From: Chrysomallon squamiferum
Taxonomy: Eukaryota > Mollusca > Gastropoda > Neomphalida > Peltospiridae
Length of the DNA stretch: 64,000 nt
Direction: 5' to 3'
Assembly: GCA_012295275.1 (NCBI GenBank)
Contig: CM022672.1
Location: 34,553,173 to 34,617,172, forward strand
Shown here: positions 23,003 through 33,628 of the stretch, one piece after another
Layout: every line of letters starts with the position of its first letter
Position numbering within the stretch: position 1 is the stretch's first letter
Notes under the pieces: generated by a model
Databases searched by the model: none
Seen by the model: only the letters and a program-made list of their open reading frames with translations
Told to the model about the DNA's origin: nothing
Made by a program: the position numbers and the translations under genes

Positions 23003-26000
23003 TTATTTCAGCCACGAAGTATAACTGACAAGATTGTTATAAAGCTTTTCCATGTTGGACAAAATAGGACTGAAACCGTCTTCTTGCCACGGTTCTAACA
23101 ACCAAGGAAACCATCGAAATGGAGACAGTGTGAAACTGTGTGTGAAGTCTTGTAAGAGAACATGTGCATAGCAGGAAGCCACAATCCCATTAACAACAAC
23201 AGTTCCCGTGTCCGTCAGAGGTCCATACAAACCTGGAGAAGATTTTAATAATGTATAAATAACCTGTGTACGAGTATGCGTGCGTGCGTGTGCATGTGGT
23301 ACAGGTATGTAACCATACATACATACATACATACATACATACATATGCATACGTATACACACATACATACACATATATATATATATATATACATATACAT
23401 ATATATATCTATACATATACATATATATATCTATATATATATATGTAAAATACACACACATGGGTGTGTATGAATAGACAATACATAAATAGACGTATTA
23501 CACTGACTCACTGTTGAGGTCAAGGTAATGCAGTCTGGTAATGAGTATTTTCACCACGACAGCTAGTTTTGTTATTTAACACTTCCAATTTGAGATGATC
23601 GTTTGTTAAACTTTGTTTGATAAGAAAGTGTGAAGAGACTTACAGCCTGCCCCACACAGAGAGTTCTTGTATACTTTTACTTTGTTGTTTTAGATAAATA
23701 GTTGTATTTCCTTTATGAGTTTCTATCTTGATTTCACCGATATCTAGATAGGCACATCTGGTTGTATGTGTACATATGCATATGCAAAAACACATACACT
23801 CATGTATACGAGAATGTGTGTGTTTATATATTTATCTGAATAATACTATTTACTATCTCAACACAACTACAATTACAATAACAACTGTAACATAATCACT
23901 ACAACTAGTCTATGACAGTAATACTTTCGCTACCAGTATTATAATTATTATAGCAATTACAATTTTCACTGTTATGCGAGTCTTGATTTTATGTGTGTTG
24001 TGTTTCTGTTTGATTATTTATGTGCTTGTTATATGCTGAGTTTCTCAAATATGGTAATTATAGTACATATTATTACTACTACGATATATATTATACTACA
24101 ACTACTTATATTAGTATTAAGTACTATTACTAGTTTACCTTGTTTTTTTGAAAGAAATGTTTGTACAACTCTTTCTGGACAGAAATCAGCTGAGCAGCTT
24201 TCTGTGTTGAATAAATAATCACCTGGTTTCACTGATTTAGCAAACCTCAAGAAAACAACAAATATAGTGTAAATAACAGATGTTATTCATTACATAATAC
24301 ATGATATACCTGGACTATTAAATATTATCTTAATGTACTAAGAATTAATTTTAAAATAAACTATGTTGTTTAAGACTTACAATTCAAATAATGCACTTAT
24401 ACATAATTTCATCCAGAAGAAACGTTTTTGAATAGATATTCGAAATTTATTTGAAAATCATTGTAATTACACTAAGAAAGAAAACAAACTTAGGTTCCAT
24501 GCTGGCTGACTTATTTGCTGAGGTAAACACAACGTGTAACTCGGTGAGAGAAAGTCGACGGCCTTGTTCTGTAATCAGAGTCACAAATGTCGTATTTGAT
24601 GCTGGTTGTCGATGCAGAAATGTTCTCACTTCAGAAAATAAGCGTTTTCCATTTTGTACTGAAATTAGTAAAATAATATTACATTGATAGACTTTCAGTA
24701 GAACATGTTTTGACATCATTAAAACAACATGAAACATGTCTTCATTTTATACGAAAAAAGATAGGAAATAATGGAACGTTGATGAAACCATCTTAGTTGT
24801 AGTTACTTCACCAGTTAACAACACTCGACTGTTTTATTTCATTCTTGACCTAAGAGATCTCTTGCTTCAGTGCAGCACCTAACATTGGTACTGTTGAGGA
24901 AACGACGTGCGTAGAATGTCAAAAAGAAGAGAGAAATACTGAACACCTCAGTGTGTAACTCGAAACAAACACGTGACGTACCAGTGAGAATCTTTTGTCC
25001 TGAAACAAGGTTTTTCATTTCTGCAGTCTCCCCAGTGTCCAGGAGCACAGTGACGTCACCAGGAAAACAGCCTGAAGACTTCTCCTTCTTCTTCTCCTCC
25101 TTGCATGGCGCACAACAGTCGTCCCGATAAACATGATTCCCAGGACAACATCCAAAATCACAGAATAGCATTTGATCTCCACATCGACATTGCTAGTTTC
25201 GTTGATTGAGCAGTTTTAATATTTTAACATTAACGAAAAGAAGTAAACAGTTAGCTTTGGGTTTGTCTGTAAATTGTTGTAATTCGCACTGTTGTGTGAA
25301 ACATTAACTAGGTGAACACTACTAACAGTATTTACGTACAAGATATATTACATTATAGTAATAAGATATATTATTTACATTATAGTAACAAGATGTCAAT
25401 ATTTTGTTATGCTAAGACGATACCTTTTTTGTCTTCCATTATAATAAAAAGTAAGTAAGTAAATAAATAAAAAATAAAAAAAATAAAAATAAATAAATTA
25501 TAACATAATAAATTCTGAGACTACGTATAAAAAATCTATCAAGTGGAAAATGCTTATATTTATTGTTACTTATTACAAGAGTCCTTCTGCTTCATTTTAT
25601 ATACAGAGAGAGAGAGAGAGAGAGAGAGAGAGAGAGAGAGAGAGAGAGAGAGAGAGAGAGAGAGAGAGAGAGAGAGAGAGAGAGAGAGAGAGAGAGAGAC
25701 GCATGCAATAGGAGGATATATCTCAACTGAACATAATTTGAGGTAATGTTTTATTAATTAGGAATTCGAATCTTCCTTTAGTGATTCAGATAAAAACATA
25801 TGTTCGCTAGAAAATAAAATTTCCTTTTTAGACCAGTTCCATGTCCTTGATTATCTATAAATATTTGTCATTTTTTTATCCTGTTTATTATTATATTAAA
25901 TTGCTGTCTAAACAACAAAATTACATTTTATTAGGTTGTTGTTAAATTATGCTTACCTCTGCTGCCTTTCTCACTGAAAGGGAACAAAACACAGAGTTAA

Positions 26001-30792: not shown

Positions 30793-33628
30793 ATGAAATC
30801 GGCTGAAGCTAAATTTGCTGTGTTTACCTTATTGTATGTTCTTAACTCTGTGTTCTGTGGCCTTAAAGTGGTAAGCATTTTTAACTACATCCAATAATAT
30901 ATAATACTGTAGATCAGACAGCAATTTAATAAAATAATAAACAGGTTACACAATGTAACAAATATTTCTTGATAGAGGTAATTACGAACATACAACTGCT
31001 CTAAAACGGATATTTTATTTTTGAAGCATTTATGTTTTTTATCTGAATCACTTAAGGAATTAACAAAAGATTACCTCACATTCTGCTTTTTTGATATCTA
31101 TATATTATCCTCCTGTTACAATCATCTCTCTCTCTCTCTCTCTCTCTCTCTCTCTCTCTCTCTCTCTCTCTCTCTCTCTCTCTCTCTGTTTATTATTATT
31201 TTTATTTACTCACTTCCTACTATAAAGTAAAAAACAAAGGTATCCTCTTAGAATAATACAAATACTGACAACTTGTTACTATAATGTAAATAACATATCT
31301 TGTTACTATAATGTAAATAACATATCTTGTTACTATAATGCAAATAACATATCTTGTTACTATAATATAAATAATATATCTCCTTACTATTACGTAAATA
31401 CTGTTAATATTATTTGCCTTGTTTATTTTGTTCACATACTAGTATGAATTACAACAATTTACGAACAAAACCAAAGATAAATATCTGCCACTTTTCGTTA
31501 ATGTTAAAATATAAAAATTGCTTCATTCAATGAAAATAGCATCGACCTCACCTATGTCCTTGTGGAGACCCAATAGTAAAGTGTCTTGAACGATGTTGTC
31601 CTGGATATTTTGTTACTGTGGAAAAGTGTTGTTCTCCATGTGAGGGGGAGGTACCTCCACCATGTTTTCCTGGTGACGTCACTGTGCTACTGGACAATGG
31701 AGAGACTGTAAACATGAAAAATCTTGTTTCAGGACAAAAGATTCTCGCTGGTACGTCACGTTTGTTTCCAGTTACAAACTGAGATTTTCAGTATTTGTTT
31801 AACATCCTACATAGTTCTGTTCCTTAACTGAATCAAATTTAGGTTTTGTACTGAAGCAAGAGATCTCTTAGATCAAGAATGAAATAAAACAGTCGAGTGT
31901 TGTTAACTGGATGAGTAACTAGAACAAAATAGGTTTCATCAATGCTCTACTATGAGACATCTTTTTCATTAAAAAGGGAAATCTGTTGTTTTAATGATGT
32001 TATAGTAAAAGTGTATAGATTCAATATTATTTTACTAATTTCAGTACAAAATGGAAAACGCTTATTTTCTGAAGTCAGAACATTTATGCATCGTCAACCA
32101 GAATCAAATTCGACATTTGTGACTCTGATTACAGAACAAGGCCGTCGACTTTCTCTCACCGAGTTACACATTGTGTTTACCTCAGCAAATAAGTCATCCA
32201 GCATGGAACCTAAGTTTGTTTTCTTTGTTTTTTTCCGCAATGATCTTCAAATAAATTTCGAAAAACTACTCGAAATGTTTTCTTCTTGATGAAAATATGT
32301 ATAACTACATCATTTGAATTGTAAATCTTAAACAACATAGTTAATTTTAAAATTTGTTCTTATTGCCATTTAGATATTCACATTTATTATTTAATGAACA
32401 ACATCAGACAGACTTTCATCTTTATCTGAATATCGCGTTATGCAGTCATAATGATTCTTATACTATATTTGTTTATTTCGTCAGTTTCGCTAAATCAGTG
32501 AAACCAGGTGATTATTTACTGAACACAGAAAGCTGTTCAGCTGATTTCTGTCCAGAACGAGTTGTACAAACATTTCTTTCAAACAAACAAGGTAAACTAG
32601 TAATAGTACTTAATACTCATAGCAGTAGTTGTAGTATAATATATATCGTAGTAGTAATAATATGTATTATAATTACCATATTTGAGAAACTCAGCATATA
32701 ACAAGCAAATAATATAATCACACAGAAACACAACACACATAAAATCAAGACTCGCATAACAGTAAAAATTGTAATTGCTATAATAATTATAATACTGGTA
32801 GCGAAAGTAATACTGTCATAGACTAGTTGTAGTGATTATGTTACAAACACAGTCACAGTTGTTATGACATTGTAATTGTAGTTGTGTTGAGATAGTAAAT
32901 AGTATTATTCAGATAAATATATAAACACACACATTCTCGTATACATGTGTGTATGTGTTTTTGTTTATGCATATATACACATACAACCACATGTGCCTAT
33001 CTAGATATCGGTGAAATCAAGATAGAAACTCATAAGGGAAATACAACTATTTATCTAAAACAACAAACTAAAAGTATACAAGAACTCTCTGTGTGGGGTA
33101 GGCTGTAAGTCTCTTCACACTTTCTTATCAAACAAAGTTTAACAAACGATCATCTCAAATTGGAAGTGTTAAATAACAAAACTAGCTGTCGTGGTGAAAA
33201 TACTCATTACCAGACTGCATTACCTTGACCTCAACAGTGAGTCAGTGTAATACGTCTATGTATGTATTGTCTATTCATACACACACACACCCACATATAT
33301 ATATATGTATGGTTACATGCCTGTACCACATGCACACGCACGCACGCATACTCGTACACAGGTTATTTATACATTATTAAACATTTCTCCAGGTTTGTAT
33401 GGACCTCTGACGGACACGGGAACTGTCGTTGTTAATGGGATTGTGGCTTCCTGCTATGCACATGTTCTCTTACAAGACTTCACACACAGTTTCACACTGT
33501 CTCCATTTCGATGGTTTCCTTGGTTGTTAGAGCCGTGGCAAGAAGACGGTTTCAGTCCTATTTTGTCCAACATGGAGAAGCTTTATAACAATCTTGTCAG
33601 TTACACTTCGTGGCTGAAATATAGTTAG
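30793..33628 (+). CDS. Secreted 8-Cys domain + Hog (hedgehog-type Hint) protein, copy D
   Basis: Five exons, 30793-30870, 31540-31750, 32045-32213, 32485-32591 and 33393-33628; all AG/GT and in phase, 266 residues. Exons 2, 3 and 4 have the same lengths as in copy C (211, 169, 107 nt). A 26-residue hydrophobic leader (KFAVFTLLYVLNSVFC) precedes the Cys region with the same spacing as copy C, CxC-x6-C-x3-CC-x9-CC-x2-C, though most residues between the cysteines differ (CPCGDPIVKCLERCCPG here). After a short EVPPP linker comes the Hog domain: [27 protein letters not shown]. Its last exon is almost identical to that of copy C, but the end is extended by two residues (WLKYS). Expected in the secretory pathway, self-cleaving before the Hog Cys. 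AATAAA-type signals occur after the stop (GATAAATAAAG about 33685). Confidence 0.85.
31125..31187. repeat. (TC)n microsatellite in the first intron of gene D
   Basis: About 31 TC units; a tandem TATCTTGTTACTATAATGTAAATAACA repeat follows at 31260-31400. Confidence 0.95.

Follow-up and report, generated by a model that had tools for sequence, protein, structure and literature searches.

A large and diversified branch of Lophohog-like genes in Chrysomallon squamiferum predicted to encode cysteine-framed peptides ahead of a Hog domain

Two intact-looking genes, here named A and B, were modelled in a stretch of 64,000 nucleotides from the gastropod Chrysomallon squamiferum (assembly GCA_012295275.1, contig CM022672.1, positions 34,553,173 to 34,617,172; this whole stretch is called the window, and positions without a prefix refer to it). 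Each is predicted to encode a leader, an eight-cysteine peptide and a complete Hog domain. Comparison of the two genes with their relatives places them in a very large and diversified branch of mollusc hedgehog-related (Lophohog-like) proteins, the scale and pattern of which appear to be new. Judged from sequence divergence, the peptide evolves far more rapidly than either the Hog part or the neighbouring introns while its cysteines are retained. We lean, by a modest preference, towards reading A and B as secreted Lophohog-like precursors in which the Hog domain would be the conserved, self-removing carrier of a diversified peptide set.

Gene models and domain composition

Both genes consist of five exons with GT/AG at all junctions, the same intron phases and an open frame, gene A running on the minus strand from 26049 to 23003 (269 residues) and gene B on the plus strand from 30793 to 33628 (266 residues). 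The acceptor TAG immediately 5' of exon 2 doubles as an in-frame stop in both genes, and exon 2 therefore needs splicing to something upstream and cannot start the protein. The exon borders of these models are consistent with a predicted isoform from Gigantopelta aegis (P0012), in which an exon-2-like piece ending in ILT is joined to an exon-5-like piece starting with GLY.

Exon 1 (gene A, 25957..26049, minus strand; gene B, 30793..30870, plus strand) encodes the leader of the splice models, recognized by hydropathy only, with best 15-residue mean Kyte-Doolittle values of 1.97 and 2.03 in the two genes. The first part of exon 2 (25070..25192, minus; 31540..31662, plus) encodes the N-peptide, which begins its framework with CRC in gene A and CPC in gene B, has the same cysteine spacing CxC-x6-C-x3-CC-x9-CC-x2-C in both and ends in SSG and PPP, respectively, so that gene A has Gly and gene B has Pro as the residue preceding the catalytic Cys (position -1). 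The Hint domain starts in the remainder of exon 2 (24982..25069, minus, catalytic Cys codon 25069-25067; 31663..31750, plus, catalytic Cys codon 31663-31665) and continues through exon 3 (24490..24658, minus; 32045..32213, plus), which carries TELH and a His at the position of Hedgehog D303 (codons about 24614-24612 and about 32089-32091), and exon 4 (24139..24245, minus; 32485..32591, plus). Exon 5 (23003..23232, minus; 33393..33628, plus) encodes ASCYA, with the equivalent of C400 at about 23173-23171 and about 33452-33454, followed by a post-Hint tail that resembles a sterol-recognition region (SRR). The Hint motifs including ASCYA stand in the same order as in Hedgehog. The Pfam Hint profile matched gene B with an E value of 2.6e-45 over positions 13-187 of 213, extending into the post-Hint tail, and the alignment of Drosophila Hedgehog to gene B ran to residue 237 of 266; the Pfam scan of gene A covered its N-region only.

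These models agree with a sequence-only reading of the window, which had proposed two genes with a leader, an eight-cysteine region and a full Hog domain, a secreted product and a cysteine-rich peptide of about 45-50 residues, the size found here being about 44-49. The residues at -1 and 303, the inverted arrangement of the two genes and the additional copies in the window go beyond that reading. The description of this peptide as cysteine-knot-like was not upheld: a search of PDB sequences with both peptides gave 0 matches at E up to 10, and the predicted local distance difference test (pLDDT) score of the AlphaFold N-domain was <50, and therefore no fold is claimed.

Divergence of the peptide and Hint segments

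Genes A and B form an inverted duplication whose parts differ strongly in identity. The two peptides share 17 of 44 residues, comprising all 8 cysteines and 9 of the 36 other positions (Fisher 1.4e-4), and the Hint parts share 185 of 197; the ratio of non-synonymous to synonymous substitution rates (dN/dS) was 1.23 for the peptide and 0.28 for Hint. Nucleotide identity was 75-81% for introns 1-3, 95.5% for intron 4, 96% for exon 3 and 98% for exon 5. Within exon 2 the Hint part was 91% identical and the N-peptide part 65% identical with 24 gap columns, which made the latter the most diverged segment in the compared stretch, introns counted.

This contrast was also seen among paralogues elsewhere in the genome, where ten disjoint sister pairs were picked by eye from the list of exon-2 sites. 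One pair (L031/L032), the introns of which could not be aligned (48% identity), did not enter the comparison with introns. Over the other nine, the proportion of non-synonymous differences (pN) in the peptide was 128.7/778.2 = 0.165 versus 53/1285 = 0.041 in the adjacent intron, a fourfold excess (Fisher 2.5e-21), and peptide pN lay above intron divergence in 9/9 pairs. The first 29 Hint codons pooled over all ten pairs had a pN of 0.023 and a proportion of synonymous differences (pS) of 0.088, that is pN/pS 0.26 (p 1e-4). The comparison of gene A with a relative at C8:34.126 Mb gave 18.5 non-synonymous against 0.5 synonymous differences for the peptide, whereas the 29 Hint codons encoded the same residues and 105 of 107 intron bases were identical. 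A similar contrast was found between the Gigantopelta proteins P0007 and P0008 (N-peptide 41%, Hint 82% identity), and two Haliotis Lophohog-type proteins were conserved in both parts (84% and 92%).

Family size in the genome

The assembly searched comprises 404.6 Mb in 22 contigs, and all match counts given here are lower bounds. A search with gene B found matches at 151 places (E up to 0.001). Among 150 classed gene B matches at least 75 were last-exon sites, and a simple distance rule that counts fragments merged the same 150 into 86 loci, of which 46 held at least two exon classes. The Pfam Hint model gave 132 matches. Among the matches was the ordinary Hedgehog of this genome at C11:15142290-15142925, with a Hog exon containing Gly-Cys, FLDR (D303) and SCYA. 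PMC5103448 gives the largest published molluscan count that we found, 11 hedgehog-related genes for Lottia cf. kogamogai, and a literature search whose reach mostly excluded subscription papers and preprints found no report of such an expansion.

Other domain fusions were observed alongside the family. One open frame of 492 residues at C3:5016299-5017777 (L034) combines an AIG1/GIMAP-type GTPase (Pfam 2.8e-31) with a Hog domain (6.6e-34) and accounts for the match at C3:5017160. Proteins joining these two domains have been noted in coral (PMC3723955) and Biomphalaria (PMC7053062). Four Gigantopelta aegis proteins (P0002, P0003, P0009 and P0011) carry an astacin metalloprotease domain and a Hog domain, with a Cys-rich linker in 3/4, and are read as secreted proteases with a possibly autoprocessed end. 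This linker was considered as a source of the A/B N-domain and rejected, as no similarity was found.

Relationship to Lophohog

The N-peptide framework recurs among the paralogues. A motif scan of 195 kb and small pieces of the genome, in which near-identical copies were kept, yielded 38 exon-2 sites, 23 with the arrangement CxC...CxCxC...CCxxC, 5 of the window type and 10 with neither, so that an eight-cysteine framework was present in 28/38. Seven of the 8 window-type Cys columns were invariant in 14 hand-chosen aligned exon 2s, and the site at C8:33270572 (CPCGKRLVVCPCACR...CCLPC) bridges the two cysteine spacings. An N-region joined to Hog was also found in relatives from Gigantopelta, Patella, Haliotis and a chiton. 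For comparison with Lophohog we used P0019 from Acanthochitona crinita, whose identity with the published protein is assumed from name and species, together with P0010, P0017 and P0018, which were classed as Lophohog-type by our judgement of their N-domains.

When a Haliotis Lophohog-type exon 2 was used as query, 48 sites were obtained at E up to 1 and 10 at E up to 0.001, with a best value of 7e-7 and values of 0.008 for gene B and 0.07 for gene A, scores to which the Hint start of the query contributes. A hidden Markov model (HMM) built from 18 hand-picked paralogue N-domains scored 4/4 Lophohog-type proteins above 100/100 full shuffles, and 12-22 of 100 shuffles with the cysteines kept in place equalled them, indicating that the resemblance to the Lophohog N-domain lies mainly in Cys spacing. 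Compared directly, the gene A N-domain resembled the two Haliotis proteins (z 3.9 and 5.0) and Gigantopelta P0008 and P0012 (z 5.7 and 7.1; 4.1 and 4.8 against Cys-kept shuffles) and had no similarity to the chiton Lophohog (z -0.1) or the Patella protein (z 0.1). None of the four Lophohog-type proteins matched the gene B N-domain directly, and P0008 did so weakly (z 3.0; Cys-kept 1.4). Pfam searches at E up to 1 gave 0 families for the 67-residue N-region of gene B and a sub-threshold YoaP match only for that of gene A. HH_signal was not among the 4 Pfam families listed for gene B, the N-regions of both genes were without a Hedge domain match, and neither matched the nematode Wart, Ground or Qua N-domains in Pfam, whose coverage of these domains was unchecked.

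Phylogenetic analysis of 20 Hog domains, from which P0011 and P0012 (incomplete Hog) and P0016 (long branch) were left out, grouped A and B with nine Gigantopelta hogs (98/99) and next with Haliotis and Patella (88/86). The Hedgehog of the same genome joined three fish Hedgehogs (98/99) apart from A and B, and the chiton Lophohog was placed outside both groups. In another Hog tree, with the same three rows left out, the four Lophohog-type sequences were not resolved as a single group (approximately unbiased (AU) test, p 0.40). The members with His303 stood together in the best version of that tree with a support of 25/28, and a single clade of them is not claimed. In the omitted P0016 (316 residues, source 'lgn'), also a Hint protein, ASTYT replaces ASCYA and residue 303 is His.

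Taken together, position, Hog tree and cysteine frame lead us to read the A/B N-domain as putatively sharing descent with that of Lophohog, few other features remaining for comparison. The suggestion of the sequence-only reading that other lophotrochozoan hog proteins may be relatives thus gained support from the Lophohog-like framework and the Hog tree. It had not recognised the N-domain in hedgehog or in the nematode wart, ground and quahog families; this needs amending in that the domain is not isolated, since it recurs in paralogues and resembles that of Lophohog. The outcome which that reading had named as refuting, assignment of the N-domain to a known hog family, has therefore come about in part, gene A being directly similar to only the two Haliotis proteins among those of Lophohog type.

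Catalytic residues across the family

Cholesterol transfer by the Hog domain is known from Hedgehog. Genes A and B retain the first Cys, TxxH (TELH), the C400 equivalent (ASCYA) and the SRR-like tail, and the general base Asp is replaced in both by His when aligned to Drosophila Hedgehog, while the Hedgehog of the same genome retains D303. Residue 303 in 34 exon 3s, with copies and one broken copy counted, was Lys in 21, His in 7, Glu in 5, Arg in 1 and Asp in 0. The C400 position was read in 41 last exons. It was Asn in 15, Ser in 7 and Ile in 2 of the 24 from C11, Asn in the one from C12 and Cys in the remaining 16, which comprise 8 of the C5 cluster, 3 of the window and 5 other C8 and C6 pieces.

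Published mutants allow these residues to be interpreted. PMC9163320 describes D303H ('D46H') as retaining structure and activity and accepting additional sterols. According to PMC9163320 and PMC4695875, D303A permits cleavage by dithiothreitol (DTT) and does not block the acyl shift while full cholesterol transfer is blocked, and DTT cleavage is more efficient with D303A, N, R and E. C400 mutations in Drosophila impair both steps (PMC4695875). The AlphaFold model of P0008, a His303 relative, had a pLDDT of about 90 in its Hint part, and Foldseek matched this model best to 6TYY, the engineered D303H/D46H protein (E 9.7e-15), with wild type 1AT0 second (7.5e-14).

Sterol transfer, the basis of the possible anchoring raised by the sequence-only reading, is thus thinkable despite the lost Asp303 because a His substitute is known to work; we consider it chemically plausible for gene A and less so for gene B, which has Pro at -1. 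Autocleavage is likely. Across the family, the mixture of residues at 303, C400 and -1 makes a uniform cholesterol-ligase function unlikely, and the branch most likely to have kept sterol transfer would be the one with His303.

Proposed function and alternatives

The carrier reading would operate as follows. During secretion the Hint domain would undergo an N-S acyl shift at the first of its Cys residues within the secretory pathway, and cleavage would set free a peptide of about 44-49 residues that is folded and rich in disulfides. In the His303 members (A, and B less surely given its Pro) the thioester would be resolved by a sterol or a comparable alcohol, leaving a lipid-tethered peptide. 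For the Lys, Glu and Arg303 paralogues it would be more likely that water or a different nucleophile resolves the thioester or that cleavage has been lost, and the same would apply to the C11 cluster, which lacks C400 too. A secreted peptide undergoing diversification is the reading that best suits the pattern, and for it defence, recognition, venom-type activity and signalling are candidate roles. A bolder and distinctly tentative version is that a mollusc lineage has made the Hog domain the carrier of a conotoxin-like peptide arsenal, in which His303 members would keep sterol transfer through a naturally occurring counterpart of the D46H exchange of the general base, possibly using other sterols, and Lys, Glu and Arg303 members would free their peptides.

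Several observations weigh against the carrier reading. The contrast between peptide and intron was individually significant in 4/9 pairs only, and bootstrapping of the A/B peptide placed pN above pS in only 70%. Peptide pN/pS was not clearly above 1 in any pooling of the pairs: the ten pairs gave 1.13 (p 0.55), or 1.43 (p 0.045) at non-Cys sites, and the nine pairs gave 1.48 (p 0.058). Strict positive selection (pN/pS >1) in the peptide was considered and is not adopted, as the bootstrap and pair tests do not clearly show it. Gene conversion that homogenised introns and Hint and spared the peptide would yield part of the pattern, a caveat raised because intron 4 of A and B is so much more similar than introns 1-3. 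C400 is replaced by Asn, Ser or Ile in 24/24 C11 last exons, and some paralogues without C400 may not cleave, since mutation of this residue impairs both steps. The residue at -1, which is Gly in Hedgehog, was Cys in 20, Gly in 5, Ser in 3, Ala, Leu, Lys and Pro in 2 each and Asp and Arg in 1 each of the 38 exon-2 sites, gene B itself having Pro.

The last of these points also bears on a reading that we regard as a serious, if somewhat less than probable, contender, namely that Hog here acts without sterol attachment, as an uncoupled self-cleaving pro-domain whose thioester is resolved by water or thiols to give free peptides. The unconstrained -1 residue, the absence of D303 in 34/34 exon 3s with Lys in 21, and the higher thiol cleavage efficiency of several D303 mutants (PMC9163320) would all be expected of it; however, the His303 of A and B is the very replacement described there as keeping sterol transfer (PMC9163320), and the SRR-like tail persists in A, B and relatives. 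We think it unlikely that the products are Hedgehog-like ligands, that is, sterol-anchored developmental or epithelial signals comparable to Hedgehog or to the hedgehog-related proteins of nematodes, whose variation only reflects paralogue-specific receptors. The Hog domain including its tail is present, D303H chemistry is known to work and a Lophohog-type N-domain can be recognised in chiton, abalone and limpet, but arms-race-like or recognition peptides agree better with a peptide pN far above intron divergence and with copies that number in the dozens, are clustered and have partly decayed, and the -1 residue is free. Least probable is a decaying family with a weakly constrained, drifting peptide, of which A and B would be recent and perhaps silent members, as might be suggested by several broken copies in the window and a peptide pN/pS near 1, yet all 8 cysteines are kept compared with a quarter of the other residues, the Hint start is under purifying selection over the ten pairs and peptide pN exceeds intron divergence.

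One Asp303 Hedgehog and dozens of His, Lys, Glu and Arg303 paralogues in a single genome make up a natural mutagenesis set for D303, C400 and Gly-1, and this set bears on whether further hog families are sterylated. If the carrier reading is true, hypervariable Cys-framed peptides on a self-cutting carrier would represent a new route to defence, recognition or venom-type peptides, and the carrier would perhaps also tether them to membranes.

Further copies and surroundings

The window contains four or more additional copies, which are decayed or partial. The longest comprises exons 1-4 (5602..7433, plus strand); it lacks a start codon at the homologous place, has a broken frame in exon 2 and a stop in exon 3, and its N-region is short and without the eight-cysteine framework. 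The others are an exon 5 with a piece of exon 4 (20691..21311, minus), a lone exon 4 (29788..29892, minus) and an exon-5 fragment with intron-1-like sequence ahead of it (59427..59612, plus). More copies of B and A were found beyond the window at C8:34628216-34629360 (L004) and C8:34675406-34677071 (L029), the peptide of the former being equal to that of B and the peptide of the latter to that of A except for one residue; both are recent segmental duplications. A run of 200 N bases (33861-34060) lies shortly downstream of gene B, and two similar torsin-like AAA open frames are present at 11365-12135 and 61741-62610, both on the minus strand (Pfam Torsin 2.3e-16 and 5.7e-17).

Comparison with known systems

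Lophohog is described in PMC5103448 and PMC9695228 as a lophotrochozoan hedgehog-related protein of Lottia, Capitella, Acanthochitona and Lottia cf. kogamogai. A and B agree with it in being mollusc or annelid Hog proteins without a Hedge domain, and their paralogues share with it a CxCxC...CC-x-C core N-domain directly ahead of Hog. Lys303 occurs in the four Lophohog-type proteins as in most paralogues here, whereas A and B have His303. Lophohog differs further in having 6 Cys with another spacing instead of 8 and Val or Ile instead of Gly or Pro at -1, and the family described here is multi-copy and hypervariable. Among the Gigantopelta aegis proteins, P0004, P0007 and P0008 bear automated names of the type 'indian/desert hedgehog-like' and P0012 is 'uncharacterized'; P0008 and P0012 have CxCGx5Cx3C in common with gene A, and P0007 and P0008 share His303 with A and B, although the cysteines of these proteins are fewer or otherwise placed. 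The Hedgehog of the same genome has the Hog domain, TxxH and SCYA in common with A and B but differs in its Gly before the Cys and its D303 (FLDR), A and B having neither D303 nor a Hedge domain.

The nematode warthog, groundhog and quahog proteins are likewise lineage-specific hog families with other N-domains, according to PMC2362128 and PMC1636047. C. elegans possesses ten Hog-bearing proteins. Precursors of the conotoxin type combine a leader, a conserved Cys frame, a hypervariable mature segment and tandem copies. A and B resemble them in layout only and are not members; the conotoxin carrier is a propeptide cut by a protease, whereas that of A and B would be a C-terminal autocatalytic Hog domain.

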